The translations under genes and the position numbers were made by a program. A stretch of DNA of 64,000 nt from Acanthaster planci (lineage: Eukaryota > Echinodermata > Asteroidea > Valvatida > Acanthasteridae), in assembly GCF_001949145.1 (NCBI RefSeq), contig NW_019091356.1, positions 3,993,211 to 4,057,210 of the forward strand, read 5' to 3'. Under the pieces are notes generated by a model. The model did no database searches. It was given only the letters and a program-made list of their open reading frames with translations, and was not told the DNA's origin. The first letter of the stretch is position 1, and every line of letters begins with the position of its first letter. Of this stretch, positions 3,176-62,290 are shown one piece after another.

Positions 3176-3370
3176 CGTAGCTAAGGGCGGGCGGGGGGGG
3201 ATGGGGCAGGTAACCCCCCACTAAAAAACAAAATGAATGGATATTGACCAAGGCTAACAAAAAGCTTGCCCCCAAAAACCACTCCACTGAAAACTGGTAC
3301 CCCGCATAAGATGCTGGTGTCCCCTTGTGCCCCCCTCTAGTAAAATCCTAGCTCCCCCACTGCTTATAGG
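3176..3370 (+). repeat. Dispersed repeat, copy 1 (GGGGCGTAGC family)
   Basis: The sequence GGGGCGTAGC..., ATGAATGGATATTGACCAAGG, CATAAGATGCTGGTG and AGTAAAATCCTAG recurs at 36610-36812 in the same order. The G-rich and C-rich runs diverge most. It is a short interspersed element of unknown class. Confidence 0.7.
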
Positions 3371-12000: not shown

Positions 12001-15000
12001 GAAGGGTTCCCACGGCCCGGAAAAATCATGAAAAAGTTATGGAAATTGTGTTCGTTTTCCAGGCCTGGAAAAGACGTTGAACTTTGTCAAAAAGACTAAA
12101 GTCATGGAACTTCTCAAACACTGTGTGATTTCTATCATCAGAAAAAGTGCACAAAATGTGTGATTTTATTTTCTAATTTGAAAGTCTGAATAGTCCAAGA
12201 AACTGCATTATTGCGTCATGTACCAGTATTTTCTTAATTTGGTCATTTAAAAGTCATGGAATTGTCCTTTAGGTGCAGGAATCCTGTTATTGGCAGAGCA
12301 TAGGATATTTCAACAATTCAGGATTTTGATAGACAAATTTGACATGCACTGTCATTGTCCAGCTGCCCACCTTCAAACCACCTCAGTTTGCAATTCAGTA
12401 AAGCACCTTCCACAATTCTTTTGATGCATTCATGAATGGTTTTGTTAAAATTAAATTTCTTTTCCTAATAGAGTTCTCAGATCTCGGTTTTTAAGCACAC
12501 TAGTTGGAGCCAGTTTGCATCTGGATCACAGCTTTGAATCTTTACTGATTAGCATTGCAGCTGGTGCAGAACATTTCTTCCATCACGTGTCTCCGTAGAA
12601 TATGGACATGTTTCTGTCAAAATAACATGAAGAATAAGCTCTTGAAATTAATGGCCTTTCCTGAAGTAGTTTATAAGTCTTGACTCAATCACTTTAGTGA
12701 AAGCCTCTTTTCGTGTATCTGGGTTCCTAATTTTGAGGTCTATGTTCCTCTAATGTACTTTACCGTTGGCACACAATGTGCCATTGATTTCCCAGCACCA
12801 GCCTTGGCGGTATCCAGACTTTCAAGCACTTTTCGTTAACCGATCAGAGGCTGGTGATTTATGCACATGCTCGACTGAGATGCCGAGATAGGAATCATGT
12901 GGCCTGCTAGCAATATGTTGTCACTGCCTTGTAAATTTGAAAATTACTCTGTGAGACTTGGATCCCATCATTTTGCCTGGAGTGGGATCTGAACCTGTGA
13001 TCTCTTGGACCCTGTACCGGTGCTCCACCGACGGAGCCTCCTAGCCCCATGTTGCTTGTCATCCTGATTTGTCCCTGTTTTTATCCACGAGCTGGTTATC
13101 TCCCTTGGTTGAACATCGCTCTGGTATTACACAGGTTCTAGGTTCGAATCCTGCTTCAATCAATTTCTCTTTCCGATGTCCATTCCCCACCATGCTTTGA
13201 TTAGTCGATCCCGTCTGTCGTTTCAGATGGGTACCTATTTTGGTGCAGCTGTGAGAGGGATGGATCTAAACAATGATGGTTTGACTGACCTTCTTGTAGG
13301 AGCACCGCTCTACTCTGTAACGCAGGATGAAGGCAGAGTGTACATATACATTAACGATGGTAATGTAAGTATGGGGCTCTACATTATCTAAAGTTTTTTG
13401 TTGACGCCTTGCCAATTTCGACAAAAAAAATAACAGTGGTTACATTTCCTGTGATGGTGTATACATTCAACTGTGATATTTTTAGGAAAATTGAAATTCA
13501 ATGCATTTTAAATTTTGGAAAGCAGGGAAAATACCTGGAAAATCCAAATATTGCCCATGAGCCAAAAGTTATGAAAGATTATAATTTCCTAGTGTGAAAG
13601 CCACAAATTCAGGCAGGGTTTTTCCTCAAAAAATCACTTAACTTTTCTTTGAATTATTTAAAATCACAGCAAGATTAGATTGAAAAATTCAGTCTTCCCC
13701 AAATTTTTCTTGATTTTTTTCTGTGAAAAAAGGATTGAACAAGAAATATTGAATTGGACCAATGGAAGAACTAAAAATAAAAAAAATCTTTGAATCGTTG
13801 CAGGCCATCATGCGAAAGTTGCCCGACCTACTGTCAGGCTCCAATGCTGCGAACGCCAGGTTTGGGTCTGCCATTGCTGACTGCGGCGATCTAAACAGAG
13901 ATGGCTTCAACGGTGAGATCATGTCAGGTTTTAATTGGCTCGGCAGTTGTCTGGATTGTTGCACTGACTACCTAGACAAAGTTTGTCATGAGTTGAAGTT
14001 GGGTGGAAGGTTTTCACAGGTTGATTTTTTTTTTCATGTTGTTGTGGTGGAGGGGTTAAGAAATTGGGTTTCCAGCCATTGGCCCTTGGGTTTGGGAGAG
14101 GGCACTTGGATATACAATATAAATAGTATTCGTTCTCCTAGAGTTAGGGTGCATATGCCTATTGATTTGGCGTAATGATATCATGTAGAGTACTGCCAAA
14201 CAAATGATATTGAGATTTCTGTGTTTCTTTTTTTTTTTATTTTCCTTCTTGAGGGTGGCAATTTCCCTGCCGTAGCCCATAGACTTCAAATCTGGTGTCC
14301 TAAGTCAGAATCCTCATTATGTGTTACAGATGTTGTAGTCGGTGCACCCTTTGAAGATGACACCAGCGGTGCAGTGTACATCTATCATGGTGGGGAGATG
14401 GGGCTCAAGACCACCTATGCTCAGGTGTGTGCAGATGTGACCTAGTTTTATAAACTGACCCCTTTCCAGAAATAGCTACATGTAAATAGTGCAGCTTCTT
14501 TGACAGAAATGCCAACATTCTTTCATAGATTGTTGTTGTTTTGCGTGTGATTTACATTGTAAATGCACAGAGAATCCATTAGATTGTTAGAGTTACAATG
14601 TAGTAGAATTTTGTGCATTATTTTGGTTACACTTTAAAAAATTCCGTGTTTCCTCTGTGTCCTTCAGAAGCATTAATCTAAGTACTTTTCTTTTTGACAC
14701 CTGACCTGACCTTACAGAGGCTGTCTGGGCATTCCTTCATCCCACACCTCAAATCGTTTGGCAGTGCGATATCGGGCGGGGTAGACATGGATGGCAACAG
14801 CTACCCGGATCTGGTAATTGGAGCCCATCAGAGCAACAAGGCTGTGCTGTACCTGTAAGTGTGTCCGTGATTATTGTATCAAGTCCAGCAATGTACGCTT
14901 GATCTTCCAACCGAGTCCGATTTGTGGTAAGCGGCGAAGGTTGCTTAGCAGAGAAGTATACGCTCAGCACACAATCTGGTTGCCAGTCAAGTTCGGATGC

Positions 15001-18000
15001 AATGCATTGTTGACATTAACTGGTTTCCAGCAAATTTGTGATAAGCAAGAACATTGACAAGCTATATTTTTCTGGAACTGCTGATCCAAACAACAAATCC
15101 AATCAGCAACCTACCTACTTGGACCCTTGTACCTCATTGAAATTGTAAGACGCTCCACTTTTCTTGTTTCACTTCATGTGGACCAGGACCACACGGTGCC
15201 GAAGAGCCGAATAGTTTGGCTCTTTTTGTACCCTTCCGAAACGTTGGGTCAAACCCTGGCACTTTTGCTATCTAGTGACAGCTTAGCTGAGTCCGGTTTT
15301 CTTGAAATTCTCATTTTATTTTCGTTTGATAAAATGCACAGAAGCAGACCGGTCATTAAGATGGAGGCGTCCGTTGTCGTGCAAGGCACACCCATTGATC
15401 TCAACCGCACTGCGTGTCTGTTTCAGGGCCGACCGGTACCCTGTGTTTGGGTTCAACCTTGCTTCATGTATAGTGGCGTAGGTTTACCGAAAAATGTCGG
15501 TAAGTCAAACAATTGGAGTCACACCTTAATAGAGAATATTCATGATTTCAGATTTCAGTGTATTACTTAATTGGTGCGTGTTTACATGTCTGGTTTTCCA
15601 CCTCCTCAGCCATAAATTTCACTCTGGAGGCTGATGGACTCAAGAGACAGACTGGTCTTCCGGGCCGGGTCACTTTTGTTGAGAACGGCATCCGTCGTGG
15701 GAGCACCATCTCCCACAACTTAGAGCTGCGACCGAATCTGCCCACGTGTTTGCCCAGGGAGGCTCATATTGATGTGAGTTCTCAGACATTGTTAACATCA
15801 AGAAGATGACGTTGGCATGTTTGCTCATGTACTGTGGATATCAAACAAGGTCACATTTAAGGAGAGGGCTTGCGTTGACACCATGTGGATGAATCTCTTT
15901 TAGAAGAGGTATGGTTCTGATAGGAACCAGTGAGTGGGTACTCAATGTTTCGAGCAGTGTGCTGTGGTCATCCGCTATCCACATGGTATCTCCACATGCC
16001 CTCTCCTTAGACTGTTCTCCACTGTACAAAGCTTCAGACTTTATAAAGGTCGAATTTCTTCAAGCCAAGATTCTGGGCCTACAGTGATACAATAACAACT
16101 TCGTTTGTTGTTTCCTCACAAAACTGTTACTGTCAACTCTAAACCTCACCAAGCATTAAGCACTTGTTAGCCAGCCAAGATGCCATTTGTATCATACTGA
16201 CCCGTAGCTGGTGTCCCGATGCGCGGATGCTTTTGCCTGTGAATTTTGCCAGTAGCCAGAGATAATTGGAGAGTGCTGAGGCAAGCAACAAATTCCACTT
16301 AGCAACAAAAGTCGTCGGAGGACCAGTCAGCAACCAAACAAACAGCTTCGCTCACTTGTCCGCAACATTTTCTTGCTAAGCCAAACTTAGCTGCTTGTGT
16401 TTTTATATTAAAACATAAAATCATTTTCAACATTTTCTCCCCTGTTTTCTAGGTCAACATGAAAGACTACCTCAGCTCTCTGCCTTTCCGTTTGACCTTT
16501 GACATCAGGACAGCAGAAAACTCAGATGGTCCGCCGATAACTCAGTGTAGTGGATTATGCCCCATTCTTGATATGTATTCGCCCAGTAAGATTGTAGAAC
16601 AGGTGAGATACGTGAAGATCTAAATCCACACGTTATCCCTGTATCGCTGGCAGATATCAAGTCAGAGTACAGAGTACAGTTATTCTCTGCTAGTTTTGGA
16701 AATTTGTTTCCTGCCGTGATGATCAAAGTTTGAATCCTGCCTGGTGTGTAATGTTTTCAGTTCCTACCTGATTCTAGAGTTTTCCCAAGAATATTTGTTA
16801 CTTTCCAAAACTCAACAAGTCATCTGCTTTCTGCTGAAAGCCATTAAGACTCAGAATACCCGGTCTCTTCACCAGGATACAGAAACCAGAATGTTATTGG
16901 AGATGCTCCTCCTGTTGGGATTTCAAAGCCCTTGTTCGTATTACCATTTTATTTTTGTTCGCTTTCAGGTTGGTTTCATTTTCAACTGTGGTGAGGACTC
17001 TATCTGTGAGACGGACCTTCGCTTGCAAGCAGCGTTACATCCCGCAAGGTATGACGTACCTGCAACCTTTATTCATAAATTCGGAAGACAGTCTCCCTGT
17101 TCAGCAACGTGCAACTTGACCGTGTAATAACATTTGATGATGCCCGCTGAGAAGCGATAATGCCTGCTGCATAAATCACGAGGTGGCACCTGGATACAAG
17201 ACAATTCAAAAAAATGGGATCTGATTGGTCAAGAGTCTGTAAGCACACGGCTCGCCACACGCGCACCGATTGGACAATTTGCACAAAGAATAAACCATAA
17301 AATAGCTGGAAACTGAACGTAAAATTCGTGAACAAAATTGCTGAAAAACCATCATATATTGACATCTTTTGACTCTGACTAAAAAAGGTATTTATCAGAG
17401 CAGCTCAGGAGACTGAATGCTGATAATGCCCTTGGCTTTGGCTCAGGCATTCGCATCCATTCTCCGGAGCCAGTCTTAAGCGCACGTTTAAGACCAGCCA
17501 AGCACAGATGGATTCCCCCAGAAACACATACCACTAATGAATGAATTCCTGTACAGTAAAAAGACTCTTTAATTTTTGTCAATAAATTTGTGAACTATTT
17601 GTTGACTGTTTTGTAGGGGTACGTCTTACATATCCTACGGCAATGAGGAGAACCTGTTTGTTGATATTACGCTGACCAATCACGGTGAAGAAGCCCATTT
17701 GGCGCAGGTCATCATCACACATCCCGAAGACATCACTTTCGTCCGTGTGGAAAGTAACAGGGTGAGTCAGTACACGTATTTCTCCTCCATGAACAAAGCT
17801 TCCCAGAAACAAAGTCCGCTAGACTACGTTACTAAACATTAGACTACTTACTTTCACCTTCATTCAGTGTCTGTATTTTAATTGTTTTGTGAGATCAAGT
17901 TAAAGTTGTCCTTTTGAGTTACCTTACTGAACTTTTTTTCCCTCCAATTTTAGAGGAAGGAAACGATAGTGCTCTGCGGGCCAGAAAAAGGAGAAAACAT

Positions 18001-21000
18001 GACAGCCATGGTGGTGTGTGATGTGGACAACCCTATGAAAGCTTTTTCCAAGGTGAAAGATGAAGTTTGGTTTTTAAATCATCACTCTAAAGCTGTCTCT
18101 AAAAACTAATGAAGTATGTTGTAAGTGGAGGGATGTTTATGGTGTGCAGTACTGAAGTAGCTCCCGGTTCAAATTGTAGAACAATCTCTGATGTTTGTTT
18201 TTCACAGAGTTCATTCAGAGTGAAGCTCTTTATTCCGTCTTTGACGTATGAGACCACCAATGTCCAGATCACGGTAGAGGCCCGAACGACAAGTACGGAG
18301 GCCAACAGCACACTGCATGATAACAAGAAGGAGATGAGCCTGCCTGTCAAAGTCGAGGGAGACGTCACCATATCTGGGTAGGTGGTGTTTTTTGTTCTTA
18401 ATTGACTGGATGGTTGGAGGTGCTGTTCAAAGTCCCAGGCACCGAGTTCTGGATTTTTTTGACATTATGATAGCATTTCTTCGTAGTGAAGTGCTGTGCT
18501 GAAGCATTATACAGTGGTGGCTGCCAGTTTACAACAGAATGTGCACAAAGGCTCTGTTGCAGTTTATTTCCCTTTGTACTCACTTTGATTAGAGTGTACT
18601 TGATTAGAGTGTACTTGATTAGAGTGTGAGGGTTAGTTCATATGTAGGCCAAAACAAAAAGCAAGGCAGAAAGTGATCAGGGCAAACGTTGGCAAACTGC
18701 CAAATTCACGGTAACATTTGCTGTTACCCGACAAGTGTAGTGCTCTTGGTATTCGTGGGACATAAAAATCAAAATTAATTCAGGGCCGTAATGCTAACCC
18801 CCAATGTACAGTATTCCTGACTTGTACAAATTTTGGTGGGTGCCAAATTACATGTAGCAGTCTGTAGAGAACAAGGTTCCAGGGCTAATTATAGAGGTTT
18901 CGTCACTCCTGAAAAAAAAAAGAAGCCAGACTACACTGGAGTGTGAGATGACCCATGTGGCCTCCAGCGTAACACAGGAAGTGATTGACTTCCTTCACGT
19001 CTTCCTTTGTCATCTACTTCCGTTGCTGTCCTGGCTGCGGTTGAAGATTAAAGCCTGAACCCGTTGTTTTCATTGAAAGAATTGTCTTTTTTTACATTTT
19101 CTTTTTATAGTAAATGCAATATTGCAAGATGGTATGATAAAGACATTTGTAAAAAGGGAAATTTGAAAGACTGGTTTAGTCACAATTGTAGTTTTTCTGA
19201 ATGAAATTTGAAATTACCCTTAACACTGCCTCGGGTGTTTTGCTCGGAACTTCTCTAAAACTTTCAAAGAACATCAAGGAGCATGTCAAGTAACAGGCTG
19301 GCTGGACAGTCCCAGGTCCATCACAGTCGAGCAACATTTATTGGATCATAGATCTGAGAGGATTAAAGGGGAAGATAAAATGAGCCCGAAGGTTGCAATT
19401 AGGAATGGAGGGCACTTAAACTTGTGTCAGGCTATGAGTCAGAACAAAGGAAGTGCAGTGGTTGGATTGATATCATAGACATTGTCAGATTGTTTTGTAT
19501 TTGTCTGAAATAACAAATGAAAGTCAGACACATTACAATGGGTGGAAACCAGTTTGATGATAAAGAATTGGTCTATCTTAAAGATGCTATATTGTGGATT
19601 CAGTCGAGGTGCCTTTTGACATTTTTCAAATAGTGCCATCCAGCAACACCAAGGAAGTCCCAGGAGGTGGTAATTGTGCTGTCTTGTCCATGATTGATTA
19701 ACGGTGGTAGGGGTCCGTTGCAATGACCTGACATGAGGTCAGGGGTGACATGTGCATTACGGTGCAATAAGAGTGCCTCTTTAAGGCATTGTTCTGTCTT
19801 TTGTTCATGTAATTCGCTGGATATGCCAAATGTTAGAAATAACAAGGATTTCTAGTTTGGTCCAGCCTTCACATCCTTGAGGTTTTTGCGGGATTAGAAA
19901 CAATAGGGCTGGAGGAGGAAGATATCAGTCATCGACCTTGGTTGACCTTGGCTGACCTTGGTTGACCTTGGCTGACCTTGGTTGACCTTGGCTGACCTTT
20001 TAACGAAACCCAGTGAATCTTCATCGACATAACTTTGCAATCATGTGGCAGTACATGTGAAATTTTGGGGCTGATGTTAAAGGGGGATTTGGAAAATTGG
20101 ATGATGGAAATGCATTTTGTGTTCAAGTTGAAATTTTTCAAGTATGAGAAATAATTTTTTAAATGTAGCAGCTCGTTCTTGAAAAGTTCACTTACTAAAT
20201 ATTGGTAAACCGAAATATCTTCCAAACATTTTGTTTTCTGGAATTGGTTGGTCCTGAGCCCTCGTTCCTTGCATTTCATTGGATAGAGGTTTTCCACATT
20301 ATGTAACACAGTGGGAAGGGGCATTTCAGGAAGTGTACCATGTTTGTGGAGGCATGTGCCAATGTTGGCAATTTCATGTACTCCAGAATATTGAAAGACT
20401 TCAAAGGCGCGCGTGTTTCTGCGCACATCTGCGTAAATTGAATGCTAGACCGTCAAAAGTCATGTGACTGAAAATCCTGTATCAGTAGTGTCCTTATGTT
20501 TTTGGCCATCAGGGTGACCCATCCGGCTGAAGTCATATTTGGTGAGAAAAAGAGGAAAAATCCAATCAGTGCTGAGAGGACTGGAGCAGTGGATGGGATC
20601 GCTGTCAACCTAGTGGCAAACTCAACAGGGTTGATTCAAAACGGAACCGACGAAGCCAGCATTGGCCCCAAGTTCAAACACATTTATGATGTGAGTGGTA
20701 GTTGGCTTTAGTACCTTTTGGAAATCCAAGAGAGTGAGATTAAAGATGTTATTGTATTCCTTTCTGTGCATTGCAGTCAAGCTTCATTGCTATCCCTGAT
20801 CATGATGCCAATAAAACAGTTCCCATGCACGGCCTAACTTGGTGCCAAGAACTAGTGTAAATGCAGTAGTCTATTTGAGGTATGGCAGACACAAAAGAGG
20901 GGGCTATTCAGTTTGGGTGAAATCTTTTGTGTTCACTCCAAATTTAATAACCCACTTTAAATAGCGCCCTCTTTTTGTGACTGCCATGCTTCACACTCAA

Positions 21001-23445
21001 TTATGATTACCCCTTTGGTACAGGTGTCTACATGTGCTACACGATCTCTGTCGATGTTTTGCTGAAGGACGTATGGATTACATTTCTGTTTGAATGCCTC
21101 TTGAATTTGACAACATATATATATGAAATTTCTGCTGTTTGAAAGAGACCAATGACTTGATTTCCTGCAGGCACGGAACTTGGGCCCCAGCACAATCCCT
21201 TACCTGACAACAGTCAACATCACCCTTCCTTGGAAGACGAAAGAGGGCGACTGGTTGCTGTACTTCACTCACATTGAGGTGAGGGAGAAGACTTGGGTTG
21301 ACTTAGGGCACCACTCTATGTTAGAACCTCTCTTACAATTGCTCGAAATGACGTTTTTCCTGCCACGTTTAGCTTTGCTCTAGAACCGGTCACTACAAGG
21401 TTCAAGTGTGATTGGACAAACTTTCAGAAATGAACAAGTAATGAATCAGGTTGTCATAGCAATGATACATTTCAGGGTGATGGTCGATAACTTCATTGAC
21501 TTTTATTTTTGTATTTGCAGTTAGAGGGCACAGGGAGATGTGAATACCAGCACATATTACAACAGCAGCATCAGCAGCTGGAGACGTACCGATCCAGTGA
21601 GGTCACCTCCAAGGGGAGCCCCCTGTCATTTTTTAGCTCGGGAGAGGTTGGTTAGGTTTCCAGTTTGTTTTTTCTGGTCAAATTTCAAGTTCAGACTTCT
21701 TTGTGGTTTCAGAACTAGGCTTAGAAGGATTAATTCCCGGATTAAAAAAAAAAGTGGACAAGCCATCTTGTTCAATATGGCGGGGTTACAACTTTTGCTT
21801 GGATCAGCTGAAATTTCTTGTTGTGGTCTGTTTCACATTAAATTTTTTTTGAAATGACATTTTTGGTTTTCCGACAGTGGATTGTCAATTGTCAGACGGC
21901 GCAGTGTGCCACCATTTTCTGTGTGACTGACAACCTGCGGATGGGCGAGGGCGCTGTGATTAAAATCCAGGCACGCTTCTATGAGAAGACACTGATTGAG
22001 GTGTGTGGTTAGAGCTCTTTGAGTGAAAAGAAATTATTCTGTAATACAGATTCTAATCATTTTCTGTTGCTTCAGCTGGATTGTGTAACTCTCCTCCCAA
22101 GTCTTGGTTTTGTGGACAATGTTTGAGAACGACTTTTGTACTTTTTGCCTTACAGTCTGGATATGACACAATCAAGCTTCGTAGTGTAGCAACGGTCAAA
22201 GTAGAACATCATAATAATGTCCATGTACAGCCAGTGAATGGCCGGCCAGACAGTATTGTGGTAAGATGACCGTGGAGTTCTCAAATAGCATCTCTTGGGG
22301 AAAAAAAACACAGCACTCTTTGTCTTTAATCTGCGGAGACTTTAAGGTTAAATTGTAAATTTGAAGGTGATACATTTAGAGGAAGTAGTCGGGGGGGTCA
22401 CCTGCTTCTTGGGGTTGGGGAATATGAAAGTTGACTTTTTGAAATTCTTTATACTAGTTGGGTTTTTGTGCTGTCTTGCAGGTTCAAACCGTAGCGTACA
22501 CTGAGTCGTCGGTAACCACGAAAGTTCCCAACTGGATTTTAGCAGTAAGCATAGTGGCTGGAATCGTTTTGTTGCTGGGAGTAATCTTGGTGCTGTGGAA
22601 GGTAAGATGGAGAAAGGTTGTGGGGAACGGAGAGCAGCTAGCCCTAACCATTATTCAGTACAATACTCTGTGCCATCTCTACTGTTATGGGGGACAAGTG
22701 TCGATTTGAAGTCCAAGCTGCGAGGAGTGAAACAAAGCCTAGATATGTTTAAAAGGAATTTTGGGTATCAGAAAGGAAAACTGAGAGGATGTTAAGCATT
22801 TGCTTAGGAGTATCTCTTAATTTGGAATGGTCGTCATGTTCCATCTGAAAGGGCCTGTTCTTATTGCAGAGCAGGTGGCCATTCCACCGGGAATACGGCA
22901 TTGCCATCGGAACGTTAGCTCAGAATGGTCCATCAAGTGGTGGACCGTTCCCGCTGGGGCCTGAATGTTCAATGGAATGCTAGTGTTCCGTGGGAAAGGT
23001 CCAATAAAACATGAGCGTGCCCGACTTTTTAGACATACTCTTAGGAAAAAACACTTGATCAGATTTGAATGTGTGACTGGCCAAAAAATCTGAATTGAAA
23101 AATGGTGTCTAGTGGGGCAAGGTAGCCTGGGATGTATGCAGGGTGCTGACATTGTTTGCAAAAGTTCCAGTGATTGTGTGATGCCATGTTGGCATAAACC
23201 AACAAGGGCACAGGTCTTTCCACCTTGAAGCCTCTGGTTTGATTTGGGAGATGGGTGAAAGTTGTACAGCAATCAACGGATGAAGTTGACGCTTTCTTCC
23301 TGTCTCCAAACAGTGCGGTTTCTTCAGGCGGAAACAGCGGGAGGAGATGCAGAAACTTATCAACGACAAAGATGAGACGGAATCGCTCTACCACGACGGG
23401 GATGCCAACCACCTCAAAGACCCATTCCAAGACGATGAGGACTGA
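9013..23445 (+). CDS. Integrin alpha subunit, 3' part (21 exons; 5' end outside window)
   Basis: Integrin alphas pair with a beta subunit as cell-surface receptors for matrix or cell ligands. Exons: 9013-9147, 10162-10254, 11277-11419, 13227-13364, 13804-13912, 14330-14424, 14718-14854, 15342-15499, 15610-15773, 16453-16602, 16969-17048, 17617-17761, 17954-18052, 18208-18377, 20513-20690, 21171-21278, 21521-21646, 21878-22000, 22156-22260, 22482-22601, 23314-23445. All junctions are GT/AG and in frame, giving about 901 residues. Blade 3 starts with the CQAGFSAE signature. Three calcium loops ([27 protein letters not shown]) mark blades 5-7. The leg region has paired cysteines and several NxS/T sites. 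A single membrane helix precedes KCGFFRR, a variant of the family's GFFKR. CQAGFS and the leg resemble the alpha5/8/V-like group without an I domain, but an I domain would sit upstream of blade 3 and cannot be ruled out. The subgroup is uncertain; the family is not. Confidence 0.95.
10371..10436 (+). mobile_element. TTAA-flanked mini-element, copy 1
   Basis: It starts TTAACCCTAACAGTCTCGAA and ends ...CCCTAGGGGGTTAGGA. It matches the copies at 23965-24034 and 28311-28380 along its length. The 3' TTAA is degraded here. The end structure (TTAA plus CCCTAA) resembles piggyBac-type termini. It lies in the integrin intron after exon 10162-10254. Confidence 0.65.
12003..12290. repeat. Dispersed repeat with GTCATGGAA motifs
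   Basis: The stretch begins GGTTCCCACGGCCCGGAAAA and ends near TGCAGGAATCCTG. Internally it repeats TCATGAAAAAG, GGCCTGGAAAAG, GTCATGGAAC and GTCATGGAATTG. The ends are loosely inverted (GGTTCC... / ...GGAATCC). It looks like an old interspersed repeat in an integrin intron, with no coding potential. Confidence 0.45.
12964..13050 (-). repeat. tRNA-derived SINE fragment
   Basis: On the minus strand it reads GGCTCCGTCGGTGGAGC (A-box-like), then about 30 bases later GGTTCAGATCCC (B-box-like), followed by a non-tRNA body. This spacing is that of a Pol III promoter in a tRNA-derived SINE head. Mismatches indicate decay. It is not a tRNA gene because the arms do not pair fully. Confidence 0.55.
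13075..13165 (+). repeat. Second tRNA-like SINE fragment
   Basis: It has a TGGTTATCTCCCTTGGTTGA A-box-like segment, then GGTTCGAATCC, a perfect B-box, about 40 bases on. It lies within 30 bases of the minus-strand fragment at 12964-13050, giving a head-to-head pair just before the integrin exon at 13227. Confidence 0.5.
15859..16008. mobile_element. 150-bp inverted-end element carrying a hammerhead-like motif
   Basis: AAGGAGAGGGC at the left end is matched by GCCCTCTCCTT at the right. With a few mismatches the inverted match extends through ACCATGTGGAT (about 31 bases per arm). The interior, read on the minus strand, contains GGATGA, a small hairpin, then GAAACATTGAGTACCC. The same kind of core occurs at 31762-31803. 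It lies in the integrin intron after exon 15610-15773. Confidence 0.65.
18585..18627 (+). repeat. Short tandem repeat, ~16-bp unit, three copies
   Basis: The unit TTGATTAGAGTGTACT is repeated nearly perfectly, the third copy ending GTGTGAGG. It lies in an integrin intron and no function is apparent. Confidence 0.8.
19931..20000 (+). repeat. 10-bp tandem array of TGACCTTGG-type units
   Basis: Seven consecutive 10-base units alternate GTTGACCTTG and GCTGACCTTG, the first and last being variant. On the minus strand each core unit reads CCAAGGTCA, the monomer site bound by NR5A/FTZ-F1 and similar to ERR sites. The period is close to one DNA helical turn. It may be only a minisatellite; see findings. 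Confidence 0.85.
20881..20988. mobile_element. ~106-bp MITE with TATGGCAG ends
   Basis: The left end TATGGCAGACACAAAAGAGG pairs with the right end, whose reverse complement is CATGGCAGTCACAAAAAGAG. About 30 bases match on each side. The interior is only about 45 bases and noncoding. It lies in an integrin intron. Confidence 0.7.
22482..23445 (+). other. Integrin transmembrane helix and cytoplasmic tail exons
   Basis: The exon at 22482-22601 ends in a hydrophobic helix running from NWILAV to LVLWK. The last exon, 23314-23445, begins [12 protein letters not shown] and ends with an acidic tail (PFQDDED) and a TGA stop at 23443-23445. The membrane-proximal GFFRR corresponds to GFFKR, which clasps the beta-subunit tail and keeps integrins inactive. 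The Lys-to-Arg change preserves charge. Reading past the donor at 22602 would add an unrelated tail before a stop, so intron retention is possible but unsupported. Confidence 0.92.
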
Positions 23446-43529: not shown

Positions 43530-46369
43530 ATGGCCAAGTCAGCGTGGACAGACGACCTAGCCGTGGCGTCTCCAGCCCCGGTGGACTTCAGAGGCGCTCA
43601 TATCAAGCTGACCAACTCGGAGGAGGAGACCACTCCCCCAACGCTTCCCCTCAGAGGCATCTTTGATATCAAGAGCAAACACTACGACGTGGTGCTGGAG
43701 AAGGACCGAATCAGTTGGAGTCTCATCCTACCGACAATGCAAAGCGGTAAGTCGACCACGACCATAGCACGCATATTGCCTTGACTCTTCATTGGCTTGG
43801 ATGATTATATTGGCTTGAGTGAGTCGGCTTGAGTGAGTACATGAATTCGGATGACTATATTTGCTTGAGCGAGTATTCTGACTTGAATCCATCACACGGA
43901 GACAGTCATATCTTTCAGAAGTTGTTAAAAGTACAAAATTATGAGAGAAAATACTATTCAAATTGTTTTGTAGTTCGCAAATTAATACTTGAATACATGC
44001 CAGGTATAATTAAGGCATTGTTAGGTATATTTTGACGCCGTAAATGGCGCCTACGTACTCTCCGAGGTTGCCCTCCGAGAGTAACTCAGATGAATACAAG
44101 TCACGCATGTCGAAAATGAAACTAAAGATGAGACATATCAATCGCAGATGGTACCGTCCCATTCACATCGGATATAAACTAGCTATCATTACAAATATCC
44201 TATCAAATAATAAATGCCTCTATCAGTACTGAAAACAGCTGTCACCCAATCCCGGATTTATCTCAATCGGCCAATTTGGCAATGTTTCCATGACAACAAG
44301 TCATTAACAATAGCCCGACCGTCGACCTTTGGACCCACGTTTTAAAACCGAATGTGAATCGTTTATGTCATTTGACGGCACATGAAACGAGTTGGTCCAA
44401 ATGACTCACGGACCGAACTGAGAATGTAAGAATTCTGTCCTCGCATGGCCTTTTGCCATATGCTTCTGTCGCTTTGTTTAGCTTATAGATTTTGCCAATG
44501 TTGACCTCCCATTATTGTTTCATTAGCCTGCCGTTGCTACCAGCTTTTTGTGTGCTCACGTGTCCGTTGGGAGACAGTTGGTGTGCGCATAACACTCGTT
44601 AAGTTCCGTAAAGAGTGCACCGTAATGCAAAAACGGGGGCCGCTCACAGACGCATGAAATGAATGTAATAGCTGGTATGGAGATTTGGTTTAGTTTATCA
44701 TAACACTAACCGAATGCTACCAAGAGCCTCTTTTGCTTTCAACCTCTAGCTTTTTACACAGTCACTGACAGAATTGATCCGAGTTGAAACAAATTTTGAT
44801 CTACGGTAGCGATCAAATTGACAAAAGGCGCCTACGTGCAACTGCCACACGGCTCATCTTTCCACTAGATTCTAGCCTGCCGTCAAACCACACAGATTGA
44901 TATTTACGATTCTCCTTGACTGATTTTATGAGAAAAGGCAAAACAAATCGGTTCCCTCAAAATGTGGAATATTCCCGCGGGGTACTATCTGTGGAATAAT
45001 GGTTTTCAAAATCCTCTGGTGAAACAGAGTATACTCATGGAGTTGGTTTTACTATATCGTGCTTTTTATACAGAACACCATCTTACCCGCATTATTAATT
45101 AAAGTGGGATTTAGCTACTCCTTCCAACCCTCTTAATTGTTCATGAAACCGTAAGAAAACCCAAACCGCAGTATTGTAAAATGTGATTGTGAGTAATCAT
45201 TTTAAAAAACCGCATGACGTCATGTCTGGTAACGCATTCATGGAATCCTTGACTGAAGGTCATATCATGATATTATTACAGACAACAAACGCCACGGCAA
45301 TTCTCCAATACATTGCACGAAAGAAAAAAACACTATAGGGAAATCTGACATTCAAGACAGAGATACATTCATGATGAATTCTGTTTTGTCTCGGGGAGAA
45401 AATGGACAACCAGCAACGTATATTACAAACACTGTCATTAAACAATTCATGATATCCAACTTTTCAAGGACCGTGCTATATGTGTGATTCACTGACGTCA
45501 TTTCAATATGGTGAAAAGCTTCCAACACGACAGGAAACATTTCGCTAATGATGAAGCCTTTACATCAAGCAGATCCAATTGGCGTATATGAAAAATGATG
45601 GTTCGTCTGCATTGTCCAGTAATGAAAACGACTTTACGTATGCCCACGAATTATGATAATACCCAACAGTGTCCTCTCTAAAAGGTTTATACTTATACCA
45701 AGCTCTATTACCTTAATGCGGCTTATGGGTGGTGCACAGTTCTTCATTGTAAAGACACCGACAATGGGCGCTTTTCTGGTTTTTACAGAAACACAAATGG
45801 GATTATTAGATACCGTTAGAAATGGTGCTGAAAAAACTCACGTTGGCGTACATCAGCTTTTCATGTGAGGTGAACATTACTTTTGATATGTGGGTAAAAG
45901 CAATTTTAAATTGATATATTATGCCCCAGTATTTCCGAGCTGCATGCGTTCCTGTAGGTGTACTATTCTAATGGTCACTAATAATATTGCATTGTCAAGT
46001 ACTGTTGACCGAGTAAACGCCACTTGTCAGCGTGTGACGGATACACAGATTTGATAGACTGCTGTTGTGTCGTTGGATACAATAATGAAAGCATTCAACC
46101 AACCAACTGACGGGTGATCTCCCCCCCCCTCGCAGGGCGTAGGCGGAGCATACACGCATCGGTGTCCCTGCATGATGTGTACGCCGTTGGCATCAAGAGG
46201 GTGGAGAAACCGGGCAAGAATCGCGGGTACCCGGAGGGTGTGATCATCTACGTGGCCACGCCCAGCAAGAAGGACCCCAACGTGCTGACAGAGGAACGGA
46301 TCACGCTGCGTTCTACCAATGAAGACAACTGTCAGAAGTGGAGGTGTGCCATCGATTCGGCCCTCAAAG
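43530..46369 (+). other. CERKL-like PH-domain exons (1 and 2)
   Basis: Exon 1 gives residues 1-72: an acidic leader (NSEEETTPP) then LRGIFDIKSKHYDVVLEKDR, where human CERKL has LRGIFEIGRDSCDVVL. Exon 2 gives residues 73-150 with DVYAVGIKRVEK, VIIYVATPSK and the closing helix NEDNCQKWRCAI, whose Trp is typical of PH domains. PH domains in this family bind phosphoinositides and target membranes. The start ATG at 43530 is preceded by GTAAC rather than a strong Kozak context. Confidence 0.85.
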
Positions 46370-55300: not shown

Positions 55301-58300
55301 GTTATTTGGGGTCGGATTGCGCTACCCGGTTCTTCATTCACCTAACTCCTAAGGAAAATCCCTACAAAAAACACACGGGCACGGCCTTGAAAGAGATTAA
55401 GAGATGCATGTACCTGCATACAGCAAGCACTGCATTATGTGTGGACTGATGCGGCCCAGACGATCAAGTCTGACGTAGCCATTCGGGACAAAATTATGGA
55501 TTGAATCGCGGCACATCAATTCCCGTGCGTGCCTTCCGCCTGAAAGCGGCGTCAAAACGACGTTTAAACAAGAGTCTGTTCCAATCGTGAATCTAAAAGT
55601 AAACCGAAAGCCATTTTCTACGATCGATGGACTTTTTGAAGCCCGATATGACAAACGCACCAGCAGACAGCATCATCAGTGTACTGAGAAAAAAATAGCA
55701 GCCGTAACCTCCCAGGATGCAACAACTTGTCTTTGTATTTTCTATCGCGATACGGAGTGCAAAGACATTGACCTTTTCATAATCAATATAATGCATTCAA
55801 GTTTCTTTCGAATGAATGAAAGAACCAAACAGCTATTTTTGCCTGTGTCATATAAGGGCTTTGCTATCCTACAACTTCAGTGAGAATTTTTAAGTCAGGA
55901 TGTTTTCTGTGAGTGAAAAAGGCGGCATTTTTATGTTCATATATTGCACCTTCAATGTCAATGAGTAGGTTGACTGTGTTCCTTTATACACTGCTTAGTT
56001 TCCTGACAACTGAAAACATCAAAGTTTTCCCAAATGGAAAGTGAATATTACCTGTGAAATTTTCTGCTCCTCTCAAAATCAAGAAAATTATCAAATCTAT
56101 AGTACACATTTTGAAACGTTTAAAGTTTTCCACGCTTCCACGACAAACAAGGGCGTCGTTGCTGTGATGTCACTGGAGAAAGATACCGTTCGGAAGCAGT
56201 TCTGTTTAAACTGTGAACTGAACATTTTGTACATTGAAAAGCTTTAGGAGAAAACTTTACTTAGTGGCCATCTACCGTAAACGGAAACAACGAATCACTA
56301 ATTAGTAAACGAAGTTTACGACAACAAAACATCCTAAATCCTGGCACCTTTTCGCACTAAAATAGCTTTAAAACGTAACTGTCTGCCTTGGGTTATATCA
56401 GACGTTTGCTCATAAGTATGCGGTTAGCATAAAATAAAAGGGGCACAAAATGCCCTTGCAAGGGCAAACAAAACCCAAAATTGAGTTACGAGACACAGAG
56501 AAACATATTGTTTTCTACAAGAACTGTATCAAAAATTACATTGCACGGCCCCTTTAAAACTCTGGACTCCAGCGTCAGTGCTTGTGCACCGTAGCCTACC
56601 TCATCCCTGTAATCCTTTCAACCTAATGGGGGGATAATGCGCCGTATAATCTTACACGGACAATTAACAACAACATTTTTAATGTTTGTTGACCAGGCTT
56701 AGGTGGGAGGCCAAGGAAACTTCGCGCCTTTGTGAATGACTGGGTTAATGATGGCGAGGCGACACGTGTTTTCTACTCCAAGGTGGTTCCGGTCTTCCAG
56801 GTGGCAGGAACAAGACTTGATGTAATAGGTAACAATACTACTGAAAGTGATGTAATCATATGGGTTATTAAATTTATTCATTTAAATCACCAACAGAGGT
56901 TGCCCGCCAATAAAAAAATACCCCAAATTACATAAACCAAACCAAAGTACAACTTCACATTTAAAACATAAAACAAATACAAAATATACCAAACACTGCA
57001 CCAGCTATATTCCCTAAAGCAACACAAAGAAAGACGAGGACAGGGGAGGATGGAATGTTGGGAGGGGCGGGGGACAAGGGGAAAGATAACGGGGGAGGAC
57101 CCAAGGGGCAAGACATGAAGGCTACGGGTAAGAAAGGAGAATAAGGAGAAATGAGAGAGACTAAAGCACCAAGGAAGGACCAAGCTTAAATACTGATAAA
57201 TTAAAAATGCATTAAATCTCCAATATCTAAGGACTTGACATTGAATTCGACAACTGCTGATCATGTAGGTTAAATGGGAAGGTGTATGCTAGGGCCTGTT
57301 TTCGTTCCCTTTGGTGACTGGGATGTTGAGAACATGCATCCGTTGTGTACGACACCGGAAGCCAGTCTGATTCCTTCCTCCATGGTCTGATGTACACTTA
57401 TTTTAAGTGCGAAAGCAACGCACAACCTCTCGTTTTACAGTCCTTTCTTCGCATAATATTGATCCTGGCTGTTTAGAATAATTTTCAAATCAAGCCCAGA
57501 GCAGTGCTCACCGTCCAAAAGAAAGAAGGGAATCGTATTTGTTTGTTGAACTTGACATTCAAAGTCATGATTCAATTTGTGATTTCTGTACAGAAAAATG
57601 TTTACATCTACTTTTGTAAAAAAACATCTTCAATCAGAAAATGCTTTTCTGAAAAGAAGGGTGCAGTTTAATTGGATAAAAGACGGGAATTTATCAGGAC
57701 TGTTGACAAGAGATTGCGTGACAAGTTGTCACTGTAGGTAAAGACATTGACGAGAATGTCTCGGTGCACACCTCATGTCGATCATAGACACTGGCCTTAT
57801 CCGTTGCATGAAGCACTTTAGCATGTTAATTGAATTTCTCGTTTATGGACAGAGTAAGTTACAAATTAATATACGAGGTATTTTGGGATATATAACTGTT
57901 CTTTGTTAATGCTATGCTACCCTTCAATTAAACAGAGAGGAATAGAATCAGAAACCTGAGAAATTAATGAAACATGTATAACTGCCCCTATTAATACCAT
58001 TTATGGAATTTTATATTTAAGATATCCTTATAAATATTTAGAGTTTTTCATTTCCTTTTTAGTGACAACCAGAGAGGGAAGCGCTCACCAAATCCTGCAA
58101 AAAGTCGACTTTGATGATTATGACGGGTAAGCTGTGAAGTGGATTCATTTTGATAAATATGGGCATGCTCATAAGAAGTCTTGACGACAGATGCTTACAA
58201 CCATGACAGACGACAGTTTATGGTGACGCCCAGTCGGAGAGTGGGATTTTAAAGAACGCTGCAAAAGTGACATACGTATCTGTTGGTGGCACAATGTAAT

Positions 58301-61300
58301 GCAGAGCTAATAGACAAAGGTCCATTTTCTTGAACCAAGATGATTTGTATGGTTATTATGGAGATTGAGAGGCCACAGATTAATGCGCACGTGGTATAAA
58401 TCAGTCCACCGTCTTTTTCTTTAAATTACGTCGTACATAATGATGCACAATGTTGAGGATTCTAGAGGGTAAAACATAACAATCCTAGTATGTCGACACG
58501 GGACTGACGTGTGGTTGGTAAAGAAACGACCCGCGAGGTGACGTAACTGAGGATGTCCTACCGAGGACACAGCTTGATGCGGACCTGGTAGAAATAACCC
58601 ATTCATACCTCACTAAATTTATGTGTTATGCTAGGTTGGTGTGTGTCGGTGGTGAGGAAACGACCAGGGAGGTGATACACGGTCTGCTAGAAAGGACTCA
58701 GCTTGATGCGGACCTGGTAGAAATCACTCCTGATACCAACCTTACTAAGTGTGAGATTCCGCTGGGCATCATTCCAGTCGGTGAGTGGGCTTTCGGATTT
58801 GAGATCTGCCCATATGTTTAACTCTCTATAGCTCGTTTCTTCTGCATGCGTGGCTGTGAGAAATTATGAAAGCTTGAACGTCTGCTTTAACCAAGCATTT
58901 CAAAACACAGCCCAGGATTCAATTACTCGTTGTTGACACAGTAGACCGTCTACCGCTGTATTTAATTAACAAGCCATCTGCTTAAAATGTGTCCTTTACC
59001 CCCAGGTTTGTTCAACCTCGTTGCTCATTCTTCCCAGGGGACCAGCGATCCCTTCACAGCGGCAATACACATAATTCTGGGTAAATACACATTTTTAGAC
59101 GGTCTCAGTTGACGATGGTTTCTTCAGCATTGCATAATATTCGCATAATCAGTACACAGGGCCTTTATTATGACAGCCTACAGTCAAAAGTGTTCACTCT
59201 GAGGATCCCATTTACGCATTGGGTAGGCGAGAACAGGAGTGAATACCAGTGAATTAGTGAGTGCACTTGGAGTGAAAGTCCTTTCAACGCACGTTATTAT
59301 TGTTATTATTATTATATATTTCTGGTAATGACACCAAGGATTCCTCAAAAGCGCCCTAGGCACTGCAGCTCGCAAGCCTGAAGAAACCTGTAGAGAGGAG
59401 ACAATGAGAAGCAGTTACAGGTTTTGAGGTGGTAGGAAAACCCAAAGGAACATTCTGCGTAAAACCCACGGAATCAGGTAGGGATTGAAAACCCAATCCA
59501 CATGTGGACGGGCCGGGATTTGAACCTGGGCCGAAGAGGTGGAAGGCGAGGAAAGAACCACTACACCACCCTGAATCCCTGATACAAAACGGGGATGAAG
59601 TTTTCAAACAGACCTGGCAGTAATAGAGGGCTTGTGATAACTTTATCACATGGCTGATTTTACTACGCTTTTGGTTCGTCCAGGTCACCTACATCCACTG
59701 GATGTCTCAGCGATCTTCCACAACAAGGAGTTCATCCGGTTCGGCTTCTCCATGATGTACGGTTTCGCTGGGGACTGTCTCCGGAGGGCGGAGCAAAGAG
59801 CCAAGGGCGTTATCAATGCAAGAGGGCTGGACTACGCTGTCGCCAAGTCGGTCTTCAAAGTTAGGTAGTTCTTCAGGTTTTTTGACAGTGTATAGTGTGT
59901 GTTTTGAATCCTTAAATAATTTTGATATGTTGCGTTACAGCGGCATGAGAATGTTCCTATCTGCCTTGACAGAAATACAAGGAATTGATTTTCAGCAATA
60001 GCCAAACTTTCACGGCGGTCTGAGACAACGTGTGTGAGATTCAAGTATTTGGCAAGCAATTATTGAAACTGTTCTGTCTTCATTTTTACAACAGAACTTA
60101 CCGCTGTGCGGTTGAATATCTTCCCTGCGAGTCAAACGGGGTTTTCAGTGAGAGGTCACCTTGCAGAACGGGGTAAGAAGGAACTCTCCCTGACGAGAGT
60201 CGGGCTTAGAACGGCCCAAGGCACAGGTTGCATGTAACACGTGCCAGAAACTTTACTACAGATACCGTAATATCAGCACCATCATAATGCAACACATGAT
60301 TTCTCGTGAAGAAGAAGCGATGGCAACATTGGAAAGAAATCAGCTCTAGGTAGTAATCAAATTAGATTACAGAATTTGTCGAGGCCATTAAGTGTCGGGT
60401 GTTTGGCTGACTGACCCTCAGGTGTGAGAGGTGCAAGGTGAAACACCCTAGCAACGGAGAGGCAGACAGGGAAGTCTCCTGGCCACTTACGGCAGGACAA
60501 CGTGCTGATGACATGGCTAGTGGCTGTGACAACGACACGGGCCACGACAGAAATGGCCAAGTCAACAGAGGGTGTCAAGACATCGAAACGTCTCCCATCA
60601 GAACAAAAGGTTTTTCTGAAAACAAGTCATTTTTGAAAGAATATGGATAGTAAAAACAAAGAAATTTAAGACAAATTTAGTTTCAAGTTATAAAGACACA
60701 TAAATAAGTTGGTGTCAGCCTATTCAAAACAAGAGCATCACTGCAAAAACTGTGTTTAGCCAGTAAACACTTTTCTAAACATTTTTTGGCTATCAGTTTG
60801 TAAACATGTTTAAACGCTAAGCATGTTTAGAATTTTAATGGATTGTATGCACTGGACATTGATGTTAAGGACTTGAACACTAAATATTTAGTAGCCAAAC
60901 ATTTTTGCAAAGTGAAAGCAAAATTGTGTTTAAAAGATAAACCCACTTTTTAGAGTAATGAAGAAGCAACGTAGTAACCTCAAAATGGTTTTGTGTGATT
61001 GAAATGCCTTCCACGGAACACGCAACAGTAAATGAAAAATCCTAGTTGAAGCTCACTTTGAAAAACGCATGGAAATGATTTTCACTTTTTCGGTCTGAAA
61101 ACACCAACACTGTCTATGTCCTGATCCTTTCCATCGAGGGGAACACCAGTACGGAAACTACGGTACACATATAAAACTCTTAACTAAGTTTCGTCTTGTT
61201 TTAACTCTGTGGTTGCATTTCGCCTTAGCAGCAGATGGAACCGACAAGACTCAAGAGTGGATAAGCGTCAAAGGCGACTTCGTTAGCGTCGGCGCAATGA

Positions 61301-62290
61301 CCCTACCCAACCTTTGCAACTGGTGCCCCGGTGGCATTTCACCTCTGACCCACCTAGCCGACGGCTGCCTGGATCTGGTGCTCGTGCGGGGCACGACCAG
61401 AGGAGAGTTCGTGCAACATCTTAGACGCCATGCCAGTGACAAAAATCAGGTGAAGTAAAAAATCAAATATAGAGGGCGCGCGGCAAAATACTAACATGTT
61501 CACTGTGTATCCAGCCCAGTAGATACAGAAACAAACTTAGCCAACTGACAGTCTTAAGAAGCTCAATAAACTTAACCGGCATATTTACCAGAGATCATGA
61601 AGGTAAATTTATATCTCCATGCTGGGATGTACTCACGAAACGAAGTTTTGACGTCATTACACAATGTCAATAATTTTGTTTTTTTTTCTTGAACATCTGC
61701 GTAGCAGAAGAGCCAAGGCTTCCTTGTTTGAAATTCTAAGCTCTTGGAGATATATTTCTTAATTGATGTTTACTTCTGGTTTGTTGGAAAGTTCGACTTT
61801 CCCTTCGTATCCGTACATCGGGCGAGGGCAGTCAGGTTCCATCCCCTCGGAGCGAACGACAAACCGTGCACAACAATTTTCGACAAGGGCCAGGGCGAAG
61901 GGGACACGACCTGTGGTGAGGAGGCCTCTCTCGAAGACGACAACGGGGGCGCTGTGCCTAGGACAGGCAAAGAGTTCTCGATGTGGAACGTTGATATGGA
62001 GCTCATGGCCTCGGTTCCCATGGAGATCAGGTAGGACGGAAGTTCGACAAACTATTTCAGATGAGCCCAAACCGACACGACTGTACAAATGAAACAATTG
62101 TTCCGTTAATCTATGGGGTGGTGTGCTATTTCAACTTGCCATGGTCACCTCTCCGTGAACTGCGTCCACCAACATTAATTCCCTTCGTCTTGCTTGCTCC
62201 TTTCTTAGGGTACATAAACAGCTTCTGACAGTTTTCGCATCTGGTATCCAAGACACAGACCACTCAGCCCGGAGCTGTAGATGCCTCTGA
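43530..62290 (+). CDS. CERKL: Ceramide kinase-like protein, complete (12 coding exons)
   Basis: CERK phosphorylates ceramide; vertebrate CERKL is a relative without proven ceramide kinase activity. Exons: 43530-43746, 46136-46369, 56703-56828, 58063-58126, 58635-58780, 59006-59080, 59684-59864, 60095-60172, 60422-60609, 61229-61449, 61792-62030, 62209-62290. All borders are GT/AG and in frame, giving 616 residues against 558 (human CERKL) and 537 (CERK). The N-terminus has a PH-like domain (LRGIFDIKSKHYDVVLE). The kinase-type domain starts near residue 151 (GGRPRKLRAFVN, then VCVGG at 216-220). The C-terminal half matches CERKL best: IRFGFSMMYGF, FVQHLRRHASDKNQFDFPFV and MWNVDMELM. CxxxCxxC at 371-378 is a CERK trait. 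The nucleotide motif GGDG is GGEE (219-222). An insert of about 60 polar residues follows CERCK. I call it CERKL or a common CERK/CERKL ancestor type. Confidence 0.93.
43747..46135 (+). other. First intron of the CERKL-like gene
   Basis: Near its start (43791-43880) there are imperfect copies of GGCTTGAGTGAGT. The acceptor follows a pyrimidine tract with nine consecutive C. Nothing else is recognised. Confidence 0.6.
46739..47101. repeat. (CCCAA)n-type repeat with assembly gap
   Basis: AACCCAACCC, AACCCAACAC and AACCTAACCC runs occur on both sides of 247 Ns (46792-47038). The gap sits wholly inside the array, so the array is at least 115 bases and probably much longer. Protein frames through it are artefacts. 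Confidence 0.9.
52880..52990. mobile_element. Possible small MITE, TTTAGACACTA ends
   Basis: TTTAGACACTATAACCTGTG at the left and ...ACACGGACGTAGTGTCTAAA at the right are inverted. The first 11 bases match exactly and most of the next nine also match. The interior is about 70 bases. Confidence 0.5.
53581..53732. mobile_element. 152-bp MITE with TATAGAGTACCGAAGTG ends
   Basis: The left end TATAGAGTACCGAAGTGAAT and right end ...CACTTCGGTACTCTATA are inverted copies, and ACGTCAC follows on both sides. TA at the outer borders is compatible with TA target duplication as in Tc1/mariner elements. The interior has CG-rich CACACGCGCGCG. Confidence 0.8.
57020..57165 (+). repeat. Purine-rich tract (~145 bp)
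   Basis: The plus strand is mostly G and A with few pyrimidine breaks (GAGGACAGGGGAGGATGG...). The long minus-strand open frame through it reflects low complexity. It lies in the third CERKL intron. Confidence 0.6.
58506..58618 (+). pseudogene. Decayed tandem copy of the CERKL GGEE exon
   Basis: The stretch aligns with the true exon 58635-58780 at an offset of about 130 bases. Twenty-six bases, beginning CAGCTTGATGCGGACCTGGT, are identical (58570-58595 against 58699-58724), and GAAACGACC is also shared. The copy has an in-frame stop, length changes and no matching splice donor, so it is dead. It carries GAA where the active-kinase motif needs a glycine codon, as the true exon does. Confidence 0.8.
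59292..59578 (-). repeat. Full-length tRNA-derived SINE
   Basis: Read on the minus strand, the head has GGTGGTGTAGTGGTTC (A box) and GGTTCAAATCCC (B box) at tRNA spacing. A body of about 200 bases follows, ending in an (ATT)n-type tail, AATAATAATAACAATAATAA. The intact order of head, body and microsatellite tail suggests a relatively complete copy. It lies in the CERKL intron before exon 59684. Confidence 0.8.
60095..60609 (+). other. CERK-type CxxxCxxC motif and polar insert (exons 8 and 9)
   Basis: The motif Cys371-Arg-Thr-Gly-Cys375-Glu-Arg-Cys378 is split by the intron 60173-60421. It corresponds to PCRAGCFVC in human CERK, where these cysteines are reported to be needed for activity, and is absent from human CERKL. 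After CERCK the exon adds about 58 residues rich in Asp, Asn, Arg and Gly, probably a disordered loop. Confidence 0.8.

Follow-up and report, generated by a model that had tools for sequence, protein, structure and literature searches.

A CERK/CERKL-family gene of Acanthaster planci, most likely of CERKL type, with an open frame and four altered ATP-site loops

CERKL is the human RP26 gene. It causes human retinal degeneration. The window analysed in this work is a stretch of 64,000 nucleotides from Acanthaster planci (contig NW_019091356.1, positions 3,993,211 to 4,057,210), and it carries a gene of the CERK/CERKL family that was described in a preliminary description as a predicted pseudokinase without its two nucleotide-binding motifs. 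The locus raises the question of whether a protein of this family has been kept after the loss of its ATP site, and whether that protein belongs to CERKL or to CERK.

The gene is located on the + strand and extends from the ATG at 43530 to the TGA at 62288-62290. The gene model consists of 12 coding exons and 618 codons; the frame is intact as had been described, although the length had been given as 616 codons. The frame is open through all 12 exons, 11 of the 11 introns are GT-AG, and no stop, frameshift or broken splice site was found. The exons are as follows.

43530..43746, + strand: coding exon 1; aa 1-72; RGIFDIKSKHYDVVL; donor GCG/gtaagt
46136..46369, + strand: coding exon 2; aa 73-150; putative PH region, without a Pfam PH match
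56697..56828, + strand: coding exon 3; 44 codons in 132 nt, equal to exon 3 of human CERKL as implied by its isoforms (PMC2628313)
58063..58126, + strand: coding exon 4; VTTREGSAHQILQKVDFDDYDG
58635..58780, + strand: coding exon 5; acceptor tatgctag/GTTGG, donor AGTCG/gtgagt; contains LVCVGGEETTREVIHGLLERTQ
59006..59080, + strand: coding exon 6; 59006-59016 completes loop 3 (G-L-F-N); IIPVGLFNLVAHS is completed by exon 6
59684..59864, + strand: coding exon 7; GHLHPLDVSAIFHNKEFIRFGFSMMYGFAG
60095..60172, + strand: coding exon 8; the CxxxCxxC motif starts at 60162-60172
60422..60609, + strand: coding exon 9; 60422-60434 completes CRTGCERC
61229..61449, + strand: coding exon 10; CERK_C
61792..62030, + strand: coding exon 11; CERK_C
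62209..62290, + strand: coding exon 12 and stop TGA, from the gene model

The spliced protein matches DAGK_cat (PF00781; 60.7 bits, E 1.4e-16, cut-off 23.6 bits) followed by CERK_C (PF19280; 134.6 bits, E 4.7e-39, cut-off 33.5 bits). Both Pfam scores lie above the curated cut-offs and the domains stand in the CERK/CERKL order, which bears out the family assignment made before. Homology to sphingosine kinase 1 and acylglycerol kinase (AGK) was also detected by the PDB search, with E values of about 1e-8 to 1e-7, and spans approximately residues 150-372. These two proteins share the superfamily domain DAGK_cat, but they are enzymes with SGDG or GGDG intact. No Pfam PH domain was matched in the 618-aa protein at E up to 1, so the PH-domain scaffolding proposed in the preliminary description is unsupported; the PH region of vertebrate CERKL is itself poorly conserved (PMC3650063). 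Searches for RNA families and for relatives among viral contigs gave no match. Intron 2 contains a CCAACCCAAC-type repeat (46740-47104) with an assembly gap.

All four loops that we take to form the ATP site of the DAGK_cat fold are changed, on exons 3, 5, 5/6 and 11.

56735..56761, + strand: ATP loop 1, exon 3; NPxGGKGxxA changed to NDWVNDGEA (alignment; NPRGGKGKA in sphingosine kinase 1)
58648..58659, + strand: ATP loop 2, exon 5; GGDG changed to GGEE, codons GGT GGT GAG GAA
58774..58780 and 59006..59016, + strand: ATP loop 3, exons 5/6; PAGSTN changed to PVGLFN, with PV and the first base of G in exon 5
61990..62001, + strand: ATP loop 4, exon 11; VDGE changed to VDME (alignment)

The changes in loops 2 and 3 are those that had been noticed before and they were confirmed. 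The loss is wider than had been described, however, since loops 1 and 4 are also altered. The GGEE residues align without gaps with the SGDG of sphingosine kinase 1 and the GGDG of AGK in the PDB search, and the GGDG expected of CERKL and of active CERK alike is absent. The third loop of AGK is PLGETS in the PDB alignment and is off the usual form, so the loop 3 change proves nothing by itself. At the positions shared by CERK and the outgroups, the window protein has kept 9 of 19 loop residues and 48 of 100 in the remainder of the domain. Human CERKL (provisional sequence) has kept 15 of 19 and 49 of 96, respectively (p = 0.04). The ATP site of the window protein is thus conserved at the domain average, without the extra conservation seen in CERKL, and the rest of the domain appears from this comparison to be as well kept as in CERKL. 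The sequences of human CERK and human CERKL and the C-terminal half of the sphingosine kinase sequence are provisional sequences. For sphingosine kinase 1, residues 1-234 are consistent with the PDB-search alignment, and the provisional human CERKL fits the published landmarks NLS1, NLS2, NES1, NES2, R106 and R257 and is two residues too long past 257.

The altered site could belong to an active lipid kinase of an unorthodox kind, where Glu replaces Asp as the acid and the other loops are as tolerant as the third loop of AGK. The D to E change preserves the acid, and the Asn of loop 1, the Glu after loop 2 (the E of REV) and the D and E of loop 4 are still present. The CxxxCxxC motif is also kept as CRTGCERC across exons 8/9 (60162-60172 and 60422-60434) despite the lost ATP site, and this motif is described as absolutely conserved in eukaryotic CERKs and required for activity (PMC3069040, PMC10331486). 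However, Glu also stands in place of the second Gly of GGDG, the glycines and the lysine are gone from loop 1, and the glycine is gone from loop 4. A charged residue at that second Gly (G198D) is the standard dead mutant of CERK. Four loops changed together are not one tolerated swap, and we consider an active kinase very unlikely.

Two degenerate tandem copies of exon 5 lie in intron 4 (508 nt); like the changes in loops 1 and 4, they had not been noticed before.

58367..58407, + strand: copy A, exon 5 remnant; 33/41 identical, 0/500 dinucleotide shuffles as good
58509..58616, + strand: copy B, degenerate exon 5 duplicate; E = 4e-13, 0/500 shuffles as good

Copy B differs from 58643-58748 at 17 of 102 aligned sites (about 17%) and by several frame-breaking indels. 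Read in the same register as live exon 5, copy B gives GTT GGT AAA GAA ACG ACC CGC GAG GTG ACG TAA (V-V-G-K-E-T-T-R-E-V-T-stop overall), and the matching stretch of live exon 5 reads GGT GGT GAG GAA ACG ACC AGG GAG GTG. GAA ACG ACC is common to both and GGDG is present in neither, so in the simplest history the change of the second Gly to Glu came before the duplication. The motif loss is therefore most likely older than the tandem duplication of exon 5, judging from the codons of the two copies, and the remnants provide a relative date for the loss inside one genome. Gene conversion is the alternative source of the shared codons. Only the live copy has kept its frame and splice sites after the duplication and the upstream copies have decayed. 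This comparison, which does not gauge selection itself, hints that exon 5 may still be needed though the kinase motif is gone. The differences between copy B and the live exon (copy C) fall on codon positions 1, 2 and 3 at 6, 2 and 9 sites. Past selection on copy B as a reading of this bias was rejected, as the sample is too small. A possible third remnant of 20 bases (58230-58249) is 90% identical to the 3' end of exon 5 and its donor (58774-58793); its E value within the window is 0.03. In human CERKL, the corresponding intron contains an additional exon, 4b (PMC2628313).

The copies also bear on whether the altered loops arose by an error of sequencing or assembly, or as an allele private to the sequenced individual. 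The window comes from a single draft assembly, in which intron 2 has a gap of Ns (46792-47039). However, the altered loops are spread over separate exons across 5 kb without a frameshift, and the non-GGDG state is present independently in copy B. This speaks against an error in the sequence and against a null allele of very recent origin, and the exon 5 copies are the strongest evidence on this point that one genome offers. An artefact is scarcely credible.

Relaxed selection is another explanation, where the gene is heading to a pseudogene, its catalytic half is drifting and its frame is open by chance. The ATP-loop positions are no better kept than the domain average, the exon 5 remnants could be read as local instability, and GC3 is lower in exons 3-6 (70/135) than in the other exons (312/473; p = 0.003). 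The codon signal is also weaker in exons 3-6, and the coding scores of exons 6 and 8, taken singly, are not above the intron background. The lower GC3 and weaker codon signal make relaxed constraint in the catalytic half a real rival. However, 618 codons are free of stops, frameshifts and splice damage, whereas the duplicated exon copies have gained a stop and indels within about 17% divergence, and the coding scores of exons 1, 2, 7, 9, 10 and 11 exceed those of all intron samples. Drift towards a pseudogene is thus unlikely, and the frame and the comparison of exon copies suggest that the gene may have been retained by selection.

No exon elsewhere in the window appears to supply the lost motifs. 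The whole window was read and no replacement exon with a GGDG-like or PAGSTN-like motif was found in any intron on either strand, so the alternative exon that could have restored GGDG in the main transcript is absent in cis. Outside exon 5 there are two GGDG-like readings: one at 3194, due to chance, and in intron 4 a short one, VSVGGTM-stop, at 58282. No further member of the CERK/CERKL family was detected within the window by tblastn.

The sequence places the gene about equally close to both human proteins, with 33.4% identity to human CERKL and 32.6% to human CERK (both provisional sequences). In a tree of five sequences, where the human sequences are the provisional ones, the branch that joins the window protein to CERKL has a bootstrap value of 59, and the AU values are 0.60 for CERKL and 0.44 for CERK. 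A position outside the CERK and CERKL pair is disfavoured in this tree of only five sequences (AU p 0.018). The neighbouring gene upstream encodes an integrin alpha subunit; in the PDB it matches integrin alpha-4 best (108 bits), followed by alpha-V (88).

About 13113..23400, + strand: integrin alpha-4-like gene; FG-GAP exons near 13.2, 13.9 and 14.4 kb

The transmembrane exon of this gene lies near 22.5 kb, and the GFFRR of its cytoplasmic tail lies near 23317. The human gene order is ITGA4-CERKL-NEUROD1 (PMC9372250), and the adjacency to ITGA4 that characterises CERKL is found in the window when adjacency is compared. Exon 1 also has RGIF.I..DVVL and loop 1 has no glycines, which are CERKL-like features against the provisional sequences. 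We file the gene under CERKL because of the integrin alpha-4-like linkage, as the tree picks neither CERKL nor CERK, and it is most likely of CERKL type rather than CERK.

On a separate axis, the gene could be a CERK orthologue or a CERK/CERKL gene that predates the duplication, so that a true ceramide kinase line has lost activity. The near-equal identities and the AU value of 0.44, which does not reject grouping with CERK, fit this placement, as does CxxxCxxC, which is present in all CERKs. The protein also shares with CERK the HGL..RTQ, GTSD..T and HLxDG..DLxLxR stretches, the CRTGCERC form of the cysteine motif, and the domain order. It differs from CERK in that the loops NPFGGKG, GGDG, PAGSTD and CDGE are all changed. 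The integrin alpha-4-like neighbour, as at human CERKL, the CERKL-like exon 1 and glycine-less loop 1, and the disfavoured position outside the pair argue against the CERK placement, which we regard as rather improbable.

The resemblance to vertebrate CERKL covers DAGK_cat and CERK_C, the ITGA4 neighbour, a degenerate first loop and skippable phase-1 modules. Introns of phase 1 flank exon 3, exons 4 and 5 together (210 nt, 70 codons) and exon 6, and each of these can be skipped in frame. In human CERKL, exon 3 and exons 4+5 have 44 and 69 codons, as follows from the isoforms of 532, 463 and 419 residues, against 44 and 70 codons here (PMC2628313). With these near-equal lengths, the catalytic half has almost the exon plan of human CERKL. 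The human c and d isoforms skip in frame within exons 3-5, and the same modules are skippable in the window gene. Human CERKL keeps PAGSTN and VDG, has a degenerate first loop and lacks CxxxCxxC, whereas the window protein has PVGLFN and VDME and possesses CxxxCxxC (human sequence provisional). GGDG is conserved in the vertebrate CERKLs compared (PMC3650063) and is GGEE here, and to that extent the loss is independent of human CERKL, as had been proposed. The contrast with active members drawn in the preliminary description is misleading for CERKL, since all assays of vertebrate CERKL, with every lipid tried, have failed to show kinase activity although its GGDG is intact (PMC3650063, PMC2628313). 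The lipid-binding role suggested there is likewise unsupported, as overlay assays of human CERKL showed no lipid binding (PMC2628313). The non-catalytic roles proposed for vertebrate CERKL are mRNP association (PMC3912138) and stress protection (PMC2628313). Human CERKL mRNA rescues the eye phenotype of a zebrafish cerkl knockdown (PMC3650063).

The best explanation, with a probability of about 0.7, is that the gene encodes a retained, catalytically dead protein of the CERK/CERKL family, most likely of CERKL type. The profile matches show that the fold of DAGK_cat and the CERK C-terminal domain is kept, and the alignments show that the nucleotide pocket has been dismantled in all four loops, so that productive ATP binding or lipid phosphorylation is not expected. 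By homology, the protein may have a non-catalytic binding or regulatory role like that of vertebrate CERKL. The motif would have been lost first and exon 5 duplicated in tandem afterwards, with the downstream copy staying open and spliceable as the upstream copies decayed. The retention of CxxxCxxC, a motif tied to CERK activity (PMC3069040), is counted against this explanation. More tentatively, and somewhat doubtfully, an invertebrate CERKL may have lost its whole ATP site long ago, before the exon duplication, and still have been kept, so that the conserved task of CERKL needs no nucleotide binding.

If true, a natural CERKL without an ATP site would be direct evolutionary evidence for function without catalysis and would explain why kinase activity never appears in vertebrate CERKL, and rescue tests would have in the window protein a dead variant made by nature. 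The finding is moderately novel, as kinase activity is already missing from the vertebrate protein in spite of its GGDG. The literature search found no relevant work that treats CERKL as a pseudokinase or deals with ceramide kinase in echinoderms. As a minor observation, the acceptor of exon 10 is a NAGNAG (TTAGCAG) at 61225-61231 and the frame is kept with either AG.
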